Source: Prevotellaceae bacterium (lineage in GTDB: Bacteria > Bacteroidota > Bacteroidia > Bacteroidales > Bacteroidaceae). Taken from it: a stretch of 64,000 nt of DNA. Under the pieces are notes generated by a model. It ran no database searches. It was not told the origin of the DNA and saw nothing but the letters and a program-made list of their open reading frames with translations. The stretch is from contig JAQYET010000069.1 of the NCBI GenBank assembly GCA_028723525.1, positions 100,753 to 164,752 on the forward strand. Reading direction: 5' to 3'. Position numbers and translations under genes: made by a program. The first letter of the stretch is position 1. Each line of letters starts with the position of its first letter. This document shows, one piece after another, positions 264 to 55,232 of the stretch.

Positions 264-2099
264 ATGAAAAAAGAAGAAAACGACGCCCGATTGGAGCATC
301 TTAAAAGCATAGTGACATCCCTCCCTTCACAACCCGGCTGCTACCAGTATTACGACAGGGAGGGAACAGTCATCTATGTAGGTAAGGCGAAAAGCCTGAA
401 AAACCGGGTCTCGTCTTATTTCCACAAAGAAGTAGATCGCTTCAAGACAAAAGTACTTGTGAGCAAGATATGGAACATCACCTACACCGTGGTGAATACG
501 GAGGAGGATGCGCTGCTACTTGAGAACTCACTGATAAAGAAATACCAGCCGAAATACAACATTTTGCTGAAAGACGGAAAGACTTATCCGAGCATCTGCA
601 TCACCAAAGAACTCTTTCCAAGGATATTCTCCACGCGCAACATCAACAAGAAGTGGGGGCAGTATTACGGTCCGTATTCAAACGTAAGCACCATGTACGG
701 ACTGCTCGACATCATAAAGGAACTCTTCCACCCACGCACCTGCCGCTTCCCTATCACGCAGGAGGGAATAAAGTCGGGGAAATACAAGCCCTGCCTCGAA
801 TACCACATACACAACTGCGGCGCGCCATGTGTGGGAAAACAGACCTGCGAAGACTACACCCAGAACATCGTTCAGGCGCGGGAAATACTGAAAGGTAACA
901 CCCGGGAGGTGCAGAAAATGATATACGAAAAGATGATGCAGGCAGCCGAGGAACTGCGCTTCGAAGAGGCAGAAATGCTGAAACGCCGCTATTCACTGCT
1001 CGAAAGGTTTGCCTCAAAGAGCGAAGTTGTGAGCCACAGCATCACCAACGTTGACGTATTCACCCTCACAAACGACGACACAAAGGCTTACATCAACTAT
1101 CTGCACGTGACTAACGGTGCAATAAATCAAGCCCTTACGTTTGAGTTTAAGAAGAAACTCGACGAGAGCGAAGACGACATTCTCACCACCGGCATAATGC
1201 AGATACGCGAGCAGGTGGGCAGCGACGCCACCGAGATAATATTGCCTTTCGAACCCGAAACGCAGATACCCAACGCCACAATCATCGTGCCACGGCGAGG
1301 CGACAAGAAACACCTGCTGGAACTCTCGGCAATGAACGGAAAACAGTATCGTTTCGACCGACTCAAGCAGGCAGAGAAACTAAACCCCGAACAGAAACAA
1401 ACGCGACTGATGAAGGAACTGCAGAAGGCTCTCGGAATGAAGAAAATGCCATACCACATAGAGTGTTTCGACAATTCCAACATCTCCGGCACCGACGCCG
1501 TGGCTGGCTGCGTGGTGTTCAAAGGCATGAAACCAAGCAAGAAAGACTACCGTAAGTATAACATAAAAAGCGTTGCCGGACCCGATGACTACGCCTCAAT
1601 GAAAGAGGTGGTGCGCCGCCGATACACCCGCATGATTGACGAAGAACAGCCCCTACCCGACCTCATCATCACCGACGGAGGCAAGGGACAGATGGAGGTT
1701 GTGAGGCAAGTCGTGGAAGACGAACTCCACCTTGACATCGCCATTGCAGGTCTGGCAAAAGACGGTCGCCACCGAACCAACGAACTGCTCTACGGCTTTC
1801 CCCCGGCAACAATAGGCATGAAGACAGACTCCGAACTGTTTCACATCCTCACCCGGCTGCAAGACGAGGTTCACCGCTACGCCATAACCTTCCACCGCGA
1901 CAAACGCTCGAAGCACGCACTGCACTCTGAACTCGACGACATACGCGGCATAGGGGAAAAGACAAAAGACCTGCTGATAAAGAGACTGAAAAGTATCAAG
2001 CAAATAAAATTATCTGATTTACAGATACTTACAGAAATTATCGGGAAACAGAAAGCCAACATCATATACTCACATTTCCACCCACAAGACACCAATTAA
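264..2099 (+). CDS. uvrC: UvrABC system subunit C (excinuclease, dual incision)
   Basis: UvrC makes both incisions flanking a DNA lesion in nucleotide excision repair with UvrA and UvrB. The 611-residue product has the family's usual length and domain order: N-terminal GIY-YIG nuclease at about 20-100 (PGCYQYYDREG, VIYVGKAKSLKNRV), a cysteine-containing segment near 170-195, a UVR UvrB-binding helix near 205-240 (AAEELRFEEAEMLKRR), the RNase H-like nuclease half starting near 395 (IECFDNSNISG), and a C-terminal helix-hairpin-helix (DIRGIGEKTKDLL). The start is the first ATG after the parS-like palindrome. No clear promoter of its own is visible, so cotranscription with apt is possible. Confidence 0.97.
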   Translation: MKKEENDARLEHLKSIVTSLPSQPGCYQYYDREGTVIYVGKAKSLKNRVSSYFHKEVDRFKTKVLVSKIWNITYTVVNTEEDALLLENSLIKKYQPKYNILLKDGKTYPSICITKELFPRIFSTRNINKKWGQYYGPYSNVSTMYGLLDIIKELFHPRTCRFPITQEGIKSGKYKPCLEYHIHNCGAPCVGKQTCEDYTQNIVQAREILKGNTREVQKMIYEKMMQAAEELRFEEAEMLKRRYSLLERFASKSEVVSHSITNVDVFTLTNDDTKAYINYLHVTNGAINQALTFEFKKKLDESEDDILTTGIMQIREQVGSDATEIILPFEPETQIPNATIIVPRRGDKKHLLELSAMNGKQYRFDRLKQAEKLNPEQKQTRLMKELQKALGMKKMPYHIECFDNSNISGTDAVAGCVVFKGMKPSKKDYRKYNIKSVAGPDDYASMKEVVRRRYTRMIDEEQPLPDLIITDGGKGQMEVVRQVVEDELHLDIAIAGLAKDGRHRTNELLYGFPPATIGMKTDSELFHILTRLQDEVHRYAITFHRDKRSKHALHSELDDIRGIGEKTKDLLIKRLKSIKQIKLSDLQILTEIIGKQKANIIYSHFHPQDTN

Positions 2100-2157
2100 C
2101 ACCCTCTCTGCCTGCAGTTTACACCCAACCGCTCCATAATCCGTGGCGTGACATAAA

Positions 2158-2245
2158 GTAAAATCGGCGAAACTGCCGAGCAAATTCGGCGAAATTACTT
2201 TGCAAAATCGCCGAAATTGCAGAGTAAAATCGGCGATTTTACTTT
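2158..2245. repeat. 22-bp tandem repeat cluster A (4 units)
   Basis: Four head-to-tail 22-bp units at 2158-2179, 2180-2201, 2202-2223 and 2224-2245. Each starts G[T/C]AAA and has the core TCGGCGA or TCGCCGA flanked by A/T tracts; the last unit is the near-perfect dyad GTAAAATCGGCGATTTTAC. It lies between uvrC and dtd, and ends about 50 bases upstream of the dtd -33 element. Five other clusters with the same unit and phase occur in this window. No spacers, so this is not a CRISPR array. Confidence 0.9.
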
Positions 2246-2294
2246 TCCATAGAGCATGTATCAGGAGTCGAAAAGGCAGAAAAGGCTGTCTAAA

Positions 2295-2326
2295 ATTGCA
2301 CAATCAGAGAAAAAACACTAACTTTG
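2295..2326 (+). promoter_or_regulatory. dtd promoter (Bacteroidetes -33/-7 type), probably leaderless
   Basis: ATTG at 2295-2298, 20 bases, then TAACTTTG at 2319-2326, matching the Bacteroidetes TTTG / TAnnTTTG pattern. The dtd ATG is only 4 bases after the -7 element, so transcription should begin at or next to the start codon. Confidence 0.65.
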
Positions 2327-11135: not shown

Positions 11136-11243
11136 GGATTGCTGCACAGAAAGCCCCTCTTTATCACACCCTGCACAGCATAAAACACCCTTTCCCACCC
11201 CTAAAGATACCCTTCCGGCATCTTCTTCGCAACATATCACACA

Positions 11244-11331
11244 CCAATTTCGGCGATTTTACACACCAAATTCGGCGAAATTGCAAAGTAAATCCGGCGA
11301 TTTTGCTAAACAATTTCGGCGATTTTGCTCT
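11244..11331. repeat. 22-bp tandem repeat cluster B (4 units)
   Basis: Units at 11244-11265, 11266-11287, 11288-11309 and 11310-11331, in the same phase as the other clusters. Cores are TTTCGGCGATTTT, ATTCGGCGAAATT, ATCCGGCGATTTT and TTTCGGCGATTTT. It lies 125 bases upstream of the mutS -33 element. Confidence 0.9.
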
Positions 11332-11455
11332 CTCGTTCATAATCTCTTGAAAACCTATTGGGGTTTAAGCGCGGTATGAGTGGTTATAAAATATAATGCC
11401 GAGGGAGAAAAAATGAGAAAACAAAAACTTCAGAGTGCGAAAAAACTACTTATCT

Positions 11456-18529: not shown

Positions 18530-18617
18530 GTAAAACAGCCGAAATTGCACTGTAAAATCGGCGAAATTACTTTGCAAAATCGGCGGTTTTGCTGTGCAAT
18601 TTCGGCGAATTTGGTCT
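18530..18617. repeat. 22-bp tandem repeat cluster C (4 units)
   Basis: Units at 18530-18551, 18552-18573, 18574-18595 and 18596-18617. The first is degenerate (GTAAAACAGCCGAAATT), the others carry TCGGCG cores. It ends 97 bases upstream of the leuS -33 element, in the divergent region between the small RNA candidate and leuS. Confidence 0.9.
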
Positions 18618-28800: not shown

Positions 28801-28941
28801 CTCTCACTGCTATAAAGGCAGATGCAAAAATAGCAAAAAAATCATCAAAACCCACCAATACAAACATAAAATATCGCGTTATGCCGTGAATTACATCCCA
28901 GTTAACCAACCAACACACCGCGAAAGCATATCTTTCGCAAA

Positions 28942-29029
28942 GTAAAATCGGCGATTTTGTTAACCAATTTCGGCGGTTTTGCACTGTAATCTAGCCGAAT
29001 TTACTTTGCAATTTCGGCGATTTTGTTCT
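28942..29029. repeat. 22-bp tandem repeat cluster D (4 units), beside the DnaA-box cluster
   Basis: Units at 28942-28963, 28964-28985, 28986-29007 and 29008-29029; the third is degenerate (GTAATCTAGCCGAATTT). It ends 57 bases before the first DnaA-box-like site. Confidence 0.9.
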
Positions 29030-29086
29030 GCTATATATAACCAACCGCACTCCCACAGAATGCCAACAAGCGAGTGTTAATAACTA

Positions 29087-29380
29087 TGTGGAAAACCATG
29101 TTGATAACTTATGTAATATCCACAACATAACCATCGCAGCCTAAATCATGCGCATAACCACGGTTTTATTTATGCCTTTTAAACAACTTTTCCACACAAA
29201 GTTGGTAGAAAAAGATATAAACTTATTAAATTTGCAGGCATTAAGGATAGTTGTTGATAACTGACTTAAACAGTTAATATAGAAAGAGTAATGGTATTGA
29301 TAACATGTGCATAACTGCGAGCAAGATGTGGATTGAATAAAAAGACTAAAACAAACATAAAGTTTTCAACGTTTTCCACA
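29087..29380. promoter_or_regulatory. cluster of DnaA-box-like 9-mers
   Basis: Against TTATNCACA on either strand: 29306-29314 (TGTGCATAA) is perfect. One mismatch from TTATCCACA or its complement: 29087-29095, 29099-29107, 29116-29124, 29188-29196, 29252-29260 and 29372-29380. TGCGCATAA at 29149-29157 is one off TTATNCACA. Weaker: 29295-29303 and 29327-29335. Eight good sites in 294 bases, on both strands. Confidence 0.75.
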
Positions 29381-38475: not shown

Positions 38476-38822
38476 TCGTTTCAGATTTTTATTTGTAACA
38501 ATCTATTTGTTTTTCTCTCGCCGCAAAGTTATGCAAAAATCCCAATACTGCCAACAATAATCCGTGATTTTGTGGCAGCGACAGTCATTTTTTAACCTCA
38601 ATCGGTCATTAAGTATTCTAATGAACCTATCGGGGTTTATTGCCGTTATTGCCCTTTCATACCCCGCCTGACGGCATATCTCTTCCCGAAAGTTGTTATA
38701 CGTGAAAGTAAAATCGGCGAAATTGCGGAGCAAAATCGCCGATTTTGGTTTTCAATTTCGCCGATTTTACAATGTAATTTCGGCGGAATTGGTTTTCGTT
38801 ATGCCGTGTTCTGTGAGTCGAT
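38476..38822. other. intergenic region with ridA-like promoter and repeat cluster E
   Basis: 347 bases, no supportable gene. Minus-strand promoter: GTTG (38552-38555), 20 bases, TAACTTTG (38524-38531). AATCGGTCATTA (38594-38605) begins a short inverted repeat (GGTCATTA...CTAATGAACC) and matches the start of the element at 59101-59140. Repeat cluster E is at 38708-38795. Confidence 0.6.
38708..38795. repeat. 22-bp tandem repeat cluster E (4 units)
   Basis: Units at 38708-38729, 38730-38751, 38752-38773 and 38774-38795. Two units carry the complement-type core TCGCCGA, so the orientation of the central base pair varies while the dyad is kept. It lies between the PAP2 gene stop and the ridA-like promoter. 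Confidence 0.9.
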
Positions 38823-39782
38823 TTACCTGCAAACGCGCTTCGACAGGGCGTAAAGAAGGAAATAGAAGAGCAGTCCGGAAGCGAGTCCGGCAATGGCGTC
38901 GATAGCGTAATGAGCCTGAATATACACCGTTGCGAAGCAAAGCAGGACATAGAGCGGCATCAGTGTCCACACGAGCCAGCGTTTCCTGCTGTGCCATGCC
39001 AGCATCATCAGCACAGTGCTGCATCCCACGTGGCTGCTCGGGAATGCTGCCGTGGGTCGTTCGCCGGCTTGCTTGGCAGACTCCACGAGCTGATAGAACA
39101 CACCGTCGGTATCTCCCGGTGACGGCAGACACTCCTGATTGCTGCTGAAATACTGTCCGAGGTCGGGGAATATGCCCTGTGATATGCTATCGATGCCCAC
39201 GGCGTGGAAGTAGAATGTGGGTCCCACGACGGGCACGAAGATAAATATCACGTAGTAAAGGAAGAACGCCCCGAGCACCACAAACGCCGCACGGTGGAAC
39301 TCCTCGTAGCGTGCCACGAAATAGAACACCACCACGAGTGCTATCATCGGGTAGTAGGAGGCATATCCGAGGTCCATAAGTTCGCTGAAGATGTGGCTCG
39401 GAAAGGTCTGCGAGAACAGCAATGCGGGCTGGAAACCGAACAGCGACTGCTCCCAAGAGGCAAACACATGGTCGAGATTGGGGAACATACGGTTGATTTC
39501 GTATGTGTCGGGATACCACCACGAGAGCAGTGCCATTTGTGCTGCAATGCGTATCAGGCGGGTCACACGGCACGGCCACATGCGATAGACGAGCCACTGT
39601 GCCGCCGTCATTGCCACCACTCTGGCGCGCCCCCAGAGCATTGCCTTGGGGTGAACGGCATCGGTGTAGCAGAACAGGATTACCACTGTGGTGAGCACGA
39701 GATAAGCCATCACGACCCATTCCACAGCCATCAGCCCTTTAACGGGCTTCTCGGCAGAGAAATATTTCTTTATATTCTTCAT
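38823..39782 (-). CDS. PAP2-family membrane protein (AUR1/IPC-synthase-like)
   Basis: 319 residues from ATG 39782 (MKNIKKYFSAEKP); an ATG 42 bases further upstream is also in frame. Six or more hydrophobic helices. C-terminal PAP2 motifs: PTAAFPSSHVGCSTVLMM (SSH in place of SGH) and HYAIDAIAGLASGLL (H-x-x-x-D). The long N-terminal half and the FVPVVGPTFYFHAVG segment resemble inositol-phosphorylceramide-synthase-like PAP2 proteins, which some Bacteroidetes use for sphingolipid head groups. Substrate not certain. The epimerase gene ends 72 bases upstream on the same strand. Confidence 0.8.
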   Translation of the reverse strand: MKNIKKYFSAEKPVKGLMAVEWVVMAYLVLTTVVILFCYTDAVHPKAMLWGRARVVAMTAAQWLVYRMWPCRVTRLIRIAAQMALLSWWYPDTYEINRMFPNLDHVFASWEQSLFGFQPALLFSQTFPSHIFSELMDLGYASYYPMIALVVVFYFVARYEEFHRAAFVVLGAFFLYYVIFIFVPVVGPTFYFHAVGIDSISQGIFPDLGQYFSSNQECLPSPGDTDGVFYQLVESAKQAGERPTAAFPSSHVGCSTVLMMLAWHSRKRWLVWTLMPLYVLLCFATVYIQAHYAIDAIAGLASGLLFYFLLYALSKRVCR

Positions 39783-47983: not shown

Positions 47984-49669
47984 ATGATAAATAATCTTTT
48001 TAAAAAACTTTTGCCGGTGTCGGTGGCAGTATGTGCCATGACATTGGGTTCTTGTAGTGATACCGATTTGCCCATCGATGGCTTTGAAGAAGACACACAG
48101 TCGGGAATCGCTTCTTACCTCAACAGTCTTCCGTTAGCTCCGGGCATGACCCGTGCAGGTGCTCCTATAGACCCGGATGATGGCACGCCAATACCTATTG
48201 ACGATGCAGACGAGTCTGTTGTTGAACCGGGCAAGGCAGTTCTTGAGGGTATTCCCGGCTATTGGGTAAAGACGTCACGTCGTTATAAGATGACCCAGAC
48301 CTTCGACGAGAACATTCTTTTCGACCCGACGACAGACATGCTTTATCCGGGATGCGTATTAAAGGGCAGTTCCATTGCCGACGGTACGTATGCAATGATA
48401 AGCGACTGCAAGACAGGTGATGTGACATTCTCTATCAACCTTGTTCCTGCCAACCCGCAAGAGCGAGCCGAAACATCCGCAACAATACCGAATATCCGCA
48501 AAAGCGAATATCAGGAAGTATGGAACAAGTGGGCTAACATGGACTGGAAAGAGTCGCCTGTGACAACTATAGAGAGTGTTGACAAGGTGAGTTCACAGAC
48601 AGAACTTGTTACAAAACTTGGTGCAGCGGTTAAAAGTTCGATTGCAGACGGAACCCTGAACTTCGGTTTTAACTTCAGTGGCAAGAAGAACCACATACTC
48701 GCTCGCCTCATACAGAAGTCTTTCTCCGTTTCTACCGATGCTCCTAAGAACGGTACAATATTTGAAACGGTAAACAAGGAATATCTTGATGGTTATCAGC
48801 CTGTTTATGTTTCCAACATCAACTACGGACGCATAATCTACCTCTGCATCGACACTGATGAGAAAGAGACAGACATCAATGCTGCCATAGAGTTCGCTAT
48901 GAAGAAAATCAAAGGTACGGATGTTGACATAAGTGCTGACTTGGAGACACACTACAGGAACATTCTTGCCAAGAGTGACATCCGAGTGCTGATGTTCGGT
49001 GGAGGCAAAACCTTACAGCAGGAAGTGCTCAAGGGAGACATTGATGGTTTCCAGAAATACCTCATGGCAGACATCCCGATGGAGCAGATGCACCCGATAA
49101 GTTTCTCGCTCCGTTATGCTTCCGACAACTCTCAGGCTCGTGTCGTTACAAGCAACGAGTTCACTATCACACAGCGCGACTTTGTTCCTGATTTCAGCAA
49201 GGTACGCATGACACTCCGCGTGATAGGTTTCTCCGGCTACAACGATGGTCCTTTCCCTAACCTTGACTACAAGGCAAACCTCTGGGGAAGAGTTGCCGTA
49301 AGCGTGAATGGCGAAGAAAAAGAACTCGTAAGCTATGACAGGGACAACTCTTTCTGGTTCAACTACCGTGAAACTCCGGAGGTGATGCACGAAATAACCA
49401 AAGGTGGCTATGAGACTATTGATTTCTCACGCAACCCGAATGACAACATCCAAGATTTCATCGACCACCAGAAGATAACATTCATTACCGACCTGCATAC
49501 TGCATCTCAGCCATATAACTACGACTATGGTTACACAGTATTCAACCATACTCTTGGCACCGCTTATTCGGTTTACAAGTCTGACCAGCCTGTCGTTCGC
49601 CTCGAGTGCTCTTATGGACCGATAAAGATTCATACATACGTACAGATTTACGATATGAAATTCTTCTAA
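47984..49669 (+). CDS. thiol-activated (cholesterol-dependent) cytolysin-like lipoprotein
   Basis: 561 residues. Lipoprotein signal with MTLGSCS (Cys-24). CDC-family (PF01289) marks: ILFDPTTDMLYPGCVLKG, matching the YPGALL region; PVYVSNINYGRIIYLCI, matching the conserved P-V-Y-I-S-x-V-x-Y-G-R segment; PISFSLRYASDNSQARVVTSNEF, matching the region before domain 4. The tryptophan-rich undecapeptide of Gram-positive toxins is not visible, so cholesterol binding is doubtful and the protein may act on other membranes. The C10 protease gene follows 32 bases later. Pore formation is inferred from the family, not shown. Confidence 0.85.
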   Translation: MINNLFKKLLPVSVAVCAMTLGSCSDTDLPIDGFEEDTQSGIASYLNSLPLAPGMTRAGAPIDPDDGTPIPIDDADESVVEPGKAVLEGIPGYWVKTSRRYKMTQTFDENILFDPTTDMLYPGCVLKGSSIADGTYAMISDCKTGDVTFSINLVPANPQERAETSATIPNIRKSEYQEVWNKWANMDWKESPVTTIESVDKVSSQTELVTKLGAAVKSSIADGTLNFGFNFSGKKNHILARLIQKSFSVSTDAPKNGTIFETVNKEYLDGYQPVYVSNINYGRIIYLCIDTDEKETDINAAIEFAMKKIKGTDVDISADLETHYRNILAKSDIRVLMFGGGKTLQQEVLKGDIDGFQKYLMADIPMEQMHPISFSLRYASDNSQARVVTSNEFTITQRDFVPDFSKVRMTLRVIGFSGYNDGPFPNLDYKANLWGRVAVSVNGEEKELVSYDRDNSFWFNYRETPEVMHEITKGGYETIDFSRNPNDNIQDFIDHQKITFITDLHTASQPYNYDYGYTVFNHTLGTAYSVYKSDQPVVRLECSYGPIKIHTYVQIYDMKFF

Positions 49670-54043: not shown

Positions 54044-55071
54044 ATGTGAGTTCGACTAATTCAGAACAGTGTAAGCTGTGTATCAATTTCCCTTTCGACA
54101 TTGATACACGGCTTTTTAGGAAACAGACAATATGCGGCAATGGCTCCCAAAGTGTTTACTATGAAATTGTGGAATGCCCTGTGTCTGGAGTGTTCTATCT
54201 GCGCGATGTTCTTGAGTTCATCATTCACTGTTTCAATGATAGCCCTTTTCCTCAGTATTACACAGTCTGCAACACTCCTCAGTGCTCCCTTCATATTGCT
54301 TTTTAGTTTAGTTATGAGCTGTATACCGTCGACGAAGAGTTTCTGGAAGAGTTCCTTACTTATATATCCTTTATCACCGATAAGTTTTCCATATATGGAA
54401 TCTACAAAAAGGCTTTGTATTCCAGAGGTTTCCTGTCGTCTACATCTCCTGGTGTTATCATAAAGCTCAGCAGTTCTCCCATCTCATTGCAAATCAAATG
54501 TAACTTGAAACCGAAGAACCATCCCATAGAGGATTTACCTCTCTGGGCAATTCCATCGAATACCTTGTGGATGTGAATCCTCTGATTGCGACATACTCTT
54601 AGAGTAGTGCTGTCTACAAAACTAATCCCGGTACACTTGCCCAAAAGTACCTTCTTAATAAACAGATAGAGAGGTATGGCAACCTCCTTTTGGAGCTCAA
54701 CGAAACGAGTATATGATACAACATTAGGAAACAAATGACGCAGATGATTGCACACTTTTTCCTGATAAAAGTGTTTTATGCAACGATAACCCGAATCATG
54801 GAAAAGGATGACGATCATCATTATTTCTGCCTTTGACATTGTAGATTCACGGTGATATTTCCGTTTATTGACCGGCTGTAGCGTATATTTTGCCATCATT
54901 GCGTCAAAAAACTTGCAGAAATCATCAGCCATATAAAATATTTCAGTAACTTTGTCCTCGGTGATCATAGCGATTTTTGTTTGTAATTCTTTGTTATTCA
55001 GTACTATAAAGATACAACAAATTTCGCTAATCACCAAATTCTTAGACACTTATATTTCGTCGAACTCGCGT
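54044..55071 (-). mobile_element. IS982-family insertion sequence (about 1028 bp)
   Basis: The transposase resembles IS982-type DDE enzymes (see the pseudogene entry). Ends: ATGTGAGTTCGAC at 54044 and, in inverted orientation, ACGCGAGTTCGAC ending at 55071, 11 of 13 matching. I see no convincing target duplication, so the exact edges are provisional. Confidence 0.75.
54061..54968 (-). pseudogene. IS982-family transposase, frameshifted
   Basis: Read from ATG 54968 (MITEDKVTEIF), the frame runs through FFDAMMAKYTLQP, the helix-turn-helix-like region, ISFVDSTTLRV with a DDE Asp, and SMGWFFGFKLHLICNEMGE, then stops at AFL near 54402. Reading one base back at the five-T run in GCCTTTTTGTAG restores VDSIYGKLIGDKGYISKE and the rest to LTLF at 54061. 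So one T is missing, or a -1 slip is needed. Family members normally have one frame, so I call it broken. An earlier in-frame ATG at 55049 is also possible. Confidence 0.8.
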
Positions 55072-55188: not shown

Positions 55189-55232
55189 GTAAAATCGGCG
55201 AAATTATAAATCAAAATCGGCGAATTTACACG
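55189..55232. repeat. 22-bp repeat cluster F (2 units)
   Basis: Units at 55189-55210 and 55211-55232 in the same phase as the other clusters. No third or fourth unit can be seen on either side. It sits between the IS and the end of the 55285 gene. Confidence 0.8.

Follow-up and report, generated by a model that had tools for sequence, protein, structure and literature searches.

Dyad-symmetric intergenic elements of helically phased 22-bp units with a probable chromosome-organising role in a Prevotellaceae bacterium and its relatives

The window, a 64-kb stretch of DNA from a Prevotellaceae bacterium (genome G000; G345 is its sister species and other G numbers are genomes compared), carries short tandem arrays between genes such as uvrC, mutS, leuS and nadA. 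Six arrays with a 22-bp step had been claimed in the initial annotation, and all of them were confirmed at their coordinates, with four units in five arrays and two units in the sixth. They are given below together with the arms of the first element, the arms being a mean picture drawn from all elements sampled.

2158..2245, no strand assigned: four-unit 22-bp array between uvrC and the D-Tyr-tRNA deacylase gene; whole element about 2093-2307
2093..2157, no strand assigned: left arm of the first element, made up of roughly three degenerate modules of 22 bp with phased A/T
2243..2307, no strand assigned: right arm of the first element
11244..11331, no strand assigned: four-unit array upstream of mutS; whole element about 11179-11393
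18530..18617, no strand assigned: four-unit array upstream of leuS; array of the same type at the same place in G345 and G270
28942..29029, no strand assigned: four-unit array upstream of nadA; no array here in G345, G270 or G438
28875..29073, no strand assigned: 199-bp segment (array and arms) at nadA, present in G000 and missing in G345
38708..38795, no strand assigned: four-unit array between the L-PSP endoribonuclease gene and the PAP2 gene; whole element about 38643-38857
55189..55232, no strand assigned: two-unit array adjoining a DDE transposase fragment; in G345 the array at this place has four

The core GTAAAATCGGCGATTTTAC has its only exact match in the window at 2224-2242, and allowing up to three mismatches led to 12 matches on both strands versus 0.01 expected; a better description of the unit is (G/C)YAAWWTCGSCGAWWTTR(C/G) followed by 3 bp. 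Beside the two-unit array at 55189, the DDE transposase fragment covers 54405-55049; units of this array may have been lost to an insertion. Upstream of nadA, positions 29087-29380 hold 7 of the 25 DnaA-box-like sequences of the window (up to one mismatch to the DnaA box consensus; 13.4 expected in the whole window), and the GC skew changes there from negative to positive, as it also turns elsewhere. The array at 28942 may thus adjoin a replication origin. A protein with a match to the thiol-activated cytolysin domain (PF01289, E 7.8e-29) is encoded at 47984-49666.

In a sample of 465 kb (the window and 400 kb more) from the G000 assembly of 2.80 Mb in 151 contigs, 33 chains of the unit YAAWWTCGSCGAWWTTR were detected. 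Exactly four units were present in 30 of the 33, the exceptions being one three-unit chain, one two-unit chain and one single weak unit. Confinement of the clusters to the window, or random unit number and phase elsewhere, had been named at the outset as what would speak against a family, and neither was found. Similarly, the genome-wide search for a 22-bp periodic core suggested in the initial annotation yielded many four-unit clusters, which are intergenic and also occur in related species. The pattern TCGSCG-N16-TCGSCG gave 316 forward and 310 reverse matches in G000 versus 0 and 2 for the same pattern read backwards, corresponding to about 139 elements when scaled from 32 elements per 73 forward matches; a plain density estimate led to about 190. 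When ORFs below 700 nt overlapping a core were set aside, the elements lay between called ORFs in 32/32 cases in G000 (one overlapping its neighbouring ORF by 26 bp), 20/21 in G345 and 18/18 in G270. With short ORFs retained, 5 of 27 G000 arrays found by self-similarity fall inside an ORF.

Conservation in G000 extends to about 65 bp on each side of the arrays, and the right flank is, as a motif, the reverse complement of the left. The element is therefore taken as about 215 bp and dyad-symmetric, with four strong units and about three degenerate ones per side. The centre TCGSCGA was found in 99 of 124 G000 units, and AAAAT, AATTT and AAATT are the commonest half-units. TpA is rare in these tracts, with 2/248 half-units in G000 versus 49.2 expected (2/250 in a second count), 0/164 versus 22.2 in G345 and 5/132 versus 23.7 in G270. 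Within the arms, A/T content repeats every 10.25 bp in G000 (power 0.293 versus a null 99% level of 0.042) and every 10.0 bp in G345 (0.098 versus 0.048); no A/T period of 10-11 bp was detected in the G270 arms, where the best was 7.25. Outside the G000 arms (-130 to -65) the null was also exceeded, more weakly, with 0.060 versus 0.031 at 11.5 bp. The A/T maxima of the G000 arms coincide with the core positions modulo 22: among 22 phases, modules -2 and -3 rank first and -1 third, -4 and -5 are weak, and -6 to -8 return to first rank by narrow margins. The outer boundary of the element is accordingly approximate. In G345, modules -1 to -4 have the best of the 22 phases with a weaker effect than in G000, and phasing is partial in G270 (module -2 first, -1 and -3 second).

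Base pairing in G000 is below that of shuffled columns within units, between neighbours and across the whole array, the paired fraction of neighbouring units being 0.721 versus 0.778±0.008 in shuffles; units 1 with 3 and 2 with 4 pair as expected. Perfect 5-bp dyads between neighbouring units were counted in 5/93 cases versus 27.7 expected in G000 and in 11/61 versus 18.4 in G345 (P 0.0135). The low pairing and the rarity of perfect neighbour dyads in G000 indicate that a hairpin in RNA or DNA is avoided. No hairpin avoidance was observed within units of G345, and in G270 it was not significant within or between units. The two arms within one G000 copy showed no covariation, pairing no better than arms of different copies.

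The short TCGSCG pattern matched 211/399 genomes, with the backward control often as high, reflecting chance or coding repeats; a longer pattern was therefore used to survey the genus. Among 398 genus genomes it matched strongly (forward/reverse) in G000 (308/297), G659 (32/35), G270 (27/22) and G525 (23/23), and more weakly in G635, G438, G345 and G602. A sequence model built from 30 G000 elements, R1, was run on 16 chosen genomes and found matches in 13. G000, G270 and G345 were the richest, their counts being "at least" values, followed on both strands by G525 (72), G659 (64), G635 (60) and G438 (43); few matches were obtained in G571 (11), G602 (10), G467 (4), G658 (2), G526 (2) and G206 (1), and none in G299, G005 and G035.

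The LeuRS of the sister species G345 is 91% identical to that of G000. A four-unit scan of 400 kb of G345 led to 21 matches with a different centre, TCGCCCA/TGGGCGA, and a motif retrained on this species gave 29 places, with 7 (scores 2-22) dropped. An array of this type was found upstream of leuS in 3 of 20 genomes examined, namely G000, G345 and G270. Mapping by hand from alignment blocks and element lists assigned an array in G345 to 10 of 12 testable G000 places, and an automated count gave 6/9 from G000 to G345 and 6/6 in the reverse direction; the gap between both counts is explained by three places without automated anchors and one with only two clear G345 units. Cores at nine shared places are 0.55-0.73 identical, versus 0.645±0.063 at different places, and the outer flanks at shared places are 0.65-0.91 identical. 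Place is thus mostly retained, but not the letters. In G438 several other units are used, and a 22-bp-step array was present at 3 of 6 G000 places. Four G438 arrays, at C13:30264, 58227, 64963 and 132192, consist of the 22-bp unit AACAAAGTTAATAACTTTGTTG or one close to it, and one of these occupies the uvrC place.

The elements were spread along the chromosome more evenly than by chance in G000 and G270. The coefficient of variation of the spacing was 0.49 in G000 versus 0.83±0.13 for random intergenic slots (0 of 2000 draws), and 0.32 in G270, likewise over-dispersed (0 of 2000 draws); the value of 0.71 in G345 did not differ significantly from intergenic slots (P 0.167). Intervals below 5 kb were absent from the samples of G000, G270 and G345 versus 16.2 expected in all (7.7, 3.8 and 4.8 in these species). 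On the G345 chromosome, the 87 places listed, condensed from 150 matches (150 of 576 candidates were scored), include one interval below 5 kb versus 12.8 for uniform places, and every tenth of the chromosome contains some of them. The genes flanking the 32 G000 elements are tandem in 14, divergent in 10 and convergent in 8 cases (slots: 51, 25 and 17), with no orientation preference seen, and in G270 divergent places were 0/18 versus 8/42 slots (P 0.09).

Thirty copies from the sampled part of G000 were compared in 870 comparisons. Mean identity was 0.713 among cores (0.714 for independent draws; maximum 0.894) and 0.349 among arms (0.357; maximum 0.554), and about four of the 870 comparisons exceeded the simulated 99.9% level in cores and in arms each. 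On average, the copies in this part of G000 thus show no more similarity than independent draws would, which makes a young transposable family unlikely. At nadA, the sides of the 199-bp segment lie 3 bp apart in G345, and the array is also absent in G270 and G438, so that G000 alone of four species has the segment. The simplest reading is a gain of the element at nadA in G000. With one element as query no match was obtained in a plasmid collection, and with another the phage search led only to a 28-base match in two Aeromonas phages, which disfavours a mobile element of plasmids or phages. In a scan of viral contigs, one IMG/VR contig (L161 1369) was seen to carry a four-unit array mixing CAGTG and CGSCG centres.

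Arrays with a 22-bp step were also detected independently of their sequence, as self-similarity at a fixed step in intergenic DNA; the floor of this detection at lag 22 is about three units and degenerate arrays are missed (27 arrays versus 32 elements in G000). In 1.58 Mb from 80 named loci, belonging to Prevotellaceae and to some other Bacteroidaceae (LeuRS at most 79% identical among the matches listed), 40 intergenic arrays were found at step 22, versus 0, 7, 1 and 7 at steps 20, 21, 23 and 24; excesses also occurred at steps 14 (10), 28 (6) and 35 (6). Such 22-bp arrays are present in 34 of 72 Prevotella-type loci. The TCGSCG pair occurs in 1/80 named loci (L040), so the exact TCGSCG family is rare among them. 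The units differ by species and are dyadic (p<=0.05) in 16/46 cases versus 6/81 controls, and array length was 3-5 units in 127/129, with detection starting at about three. Congeners with other centres include G136 (9 arrays in 160 kb), G640 (3 in 160 kb), G401 (3 in 20 kb) and G005 (1 in 20 kb); no array was found in 40 kb of G299. A YAA...TTR frame is kept in 9/9 arrays of G136, 0/3 of G401 and 6/46 of the named loci; in shuffled arrays the mean was 3.5 of 6, with values up to 6. Three other Bacteroidaceae genera gave 7 arrays at step 22 (1/7 dyadic at p<=0.05) and 11 at step 21 (4/11) in a small sample of ten stretches from seven genomes (200 kb) chosen among short-pattern matches; the 21-bp step arrays, some of them dyadic, lie in L266, L267, L269 and L271. 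In an equally small sample of other families (ten stretches, ten genomes, 200 kb), no array at step 21 or 22 was detected.

The constraint on these elements acts on double-stranded DNA, namely on phase, tract structure, unit number and distance. With a probability of about 0.5, we read them as docking and wrapping sites on double-stranded DNA for one multimeric protein that folds or pins the chromosome. A folding role is suggested by the spacing together with the mixed gene neighbours, and a chromosome-organising role of the elements is probable. The 22-bp dyad unit corresponds to two helical turns of 11 bp each, and its A/T tracts lie on one face. A single multimeric protein would, as dimers, bind the central units cooperatively and wrap the flanking DNA; if there are four such dimers, this would account for arrays usually stopping at four units. 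The elements would then anchor the chromosome or fold it into domains of some 10-20 kb. Sites and reader would drift together between species, giving rise to species-specific centres. The initial proposal of sites on one helix face for a dimeric protein is favoured by the 22-bp phase, the avoided hairpins, the tracts without TpA and the arms in phase, but no binding protein was found. Arms, changing centres, even spacing and family-wide occurrence go beyond that proposal. Lrp/AsnC proteins can be tetramers of dimers, and the fourfold unit limit would suit such a tetramer, with Lrp/AsnC as a candidate. G000 and G345 have two Lrp/AsnC paralogues each, and the recognition helix of both is identical between the species. 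With the same helix despite a different centre, an Lrp specific for each dialect is unlikely and Lrp/AsnC was rejected as centre-specific reader; an Lrp reading only the outer YAA/TTR frame is compatible with these data.

Several alternatives have to be weighed against the docking and wrapping sites. A selfish interspersed repeat, MITE-like or REP/BIME-like, copying itself between genes is unlikely, though the most probable of these alternatives, and target immunity would account for its copies almost never being close. The clean 199-bp gain in G000 alone among four species agrees with it, a whole-element gain being equally compatible with a mobile element, as do the occurrence of the longer pattern (19/398 genus genomes including its own, the forward counts ranging from 308 to as few as 0 or 1) and the three of six G000 places without an array in G438. 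However, the copies match on average independent draws from the motif, positions are mostly retained in G345, and no obvious target duplication was seen by eye at the one junction, that at nadA. Very improbable is an element acting as RNA, either as tandem hairpins (terminators or stability elements) or as a structured RNA, although the units are dyads and some units of other species pair well by eye. In the excerpts of PMC8040213, candidate structured RNAs on opposing strands are described mostly near uvrC and as seemingly exclusive to Prevotella; these may correspond to the array 2158-2245. G000 nevertheless avoids pairing, as does G345 between its units, there is no clear orientation bias in G000, and RNA gives no reason for the exact 22-bp step. 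The pairing tests and the absence of an Rfam match in the window thus disfavour a structured RNA.

If a single transcription factor controlled a large regulon, its operators would equally be phased dyad sites near genes, and one three-unit array was found upstream of the same gene in G602 and G526 (L170, L172), a gene that presumably encodes an HU-type DNA-binding protein. We consider a regulon improbable, as convergent places are as common in G000 as among slots, the neighbours in the window, for example uvrC, mutS, leuS and nadA, are unrelated, and over-dispersion is not expected from it. The least probable explanation is intrinsically curved DNA that, with no dedicated protein, places plectoneme tips in negatively supercoiled DNA. 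It draws on A/T tracts without TpA in a phase of about 11 bp, discussed in the excerpts of PMC4132750 as a bacterial code, but shape alone does not require the uniform centres of G000 (TCGSCGA in 99/124 units), and the unit number is small and narrow.

Interspersed intergenic palindromic repeats that form hairpins are known from enterobacteria as REP/BIME and ERIC. The G000 arrays are likewise interspersed, intergenic and palindromic, but they avoid hairpins instead of forming stem-loops and step by exactly 22 bp. In plasmid iterons, direct repeats spaced by roughly two turns of the helix seat a protein on one face at one origin; the phasing is alike, whereas the arrays lie at an estimated 140-190 chromosomal places. 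From MITEs they differ in the lack of an obvious target duplication by eye (one junction), in arms that pair no better within one copy and in the absence of near-identical recent copies among 30. BrickBuilt of Porphyromonas gingivalis has, according to the excerpts of PMC4596501, 23-nt units in 1 to 22.8 copies in 19 elements, with a leader and a tail unlike each other and small inverted-repeat ends. Both consist of tandem units of comparable size that lie between genes and are bordered by flanking segments (PMC4596501), but the G000 unit has 22 bp and four copies in 30/33 chains, which places it outside BrickBuilt as excerpted. The phase of about 11 bp, the A/T runs without TpA and the stretches of about 100 bp of the phased AT-tracts in the excerpts of PMC4132750 are all found here; those tracts are, however, a statistical signal in coding and intergenic DNA, whereas the G000 elements are discrete, spaced and sequence-specific. 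The nearest described thing is PINSR of the Prevotella intermedia group, an intergenic repeat of 188 bp with 177 and 184 copies in two strains, about three quarters of its places common to both, no terminal inverted repeats and no known function in the excerpts of PMC4755523. Its range is given as confined to the P. intermedia/nigrescens group. The G000 elements are similar in being intergenic, in length, in copy number (about 139-190 estimated) and in places mostly kept, and PINSR may be a relative, judged by its excerpted description. That description mentions no 22-bp unit or dyad (PMC4755523), and compared with the missing terminal inverted repeats of PINSR, the G000 arms are symmetric as a motif and unpaired within a copy. 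The name PINSR was not found in the open-access literature outside PMC4755523. The initial statement that no family of this form had been described holds for the 22-bp four-unit form, as no such Prevotella, Bacteroides or Porphyromonas repeat was found in the open-access literature, and is qualified by PINSR with its 188 bp as a possible relative.

Short intergenic repeats of bacteria are often dismissed as junk or hairpins, and the copies described here avoid hairpins. Helical phase over about 215 bp, a unit number near four, distances of at least about 5 kb and mostly stable places with changing letters amount to a constraint of chromosome architecture, which is directly testable, and the arrays themselves can serve as bait for finding the protein. 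The Prevotella group is abundant in the human gut. Tentatively, and with less confidence than for the docking and wrapping sites in G000, we suggest a class throughout the Bacteroidaceae that would hold to a period of 22 bp (21 bp in some genera), to a dyad form and to 3-5 units, with the sequence free and species-specific; these would be self-renewing protein-wrapped sites at regular distances, with arrays replaced in place by other dialects. If true, this family-wide class would parallel, in bacteria, the sites of positioned nucleosomes or of domain boundaries.
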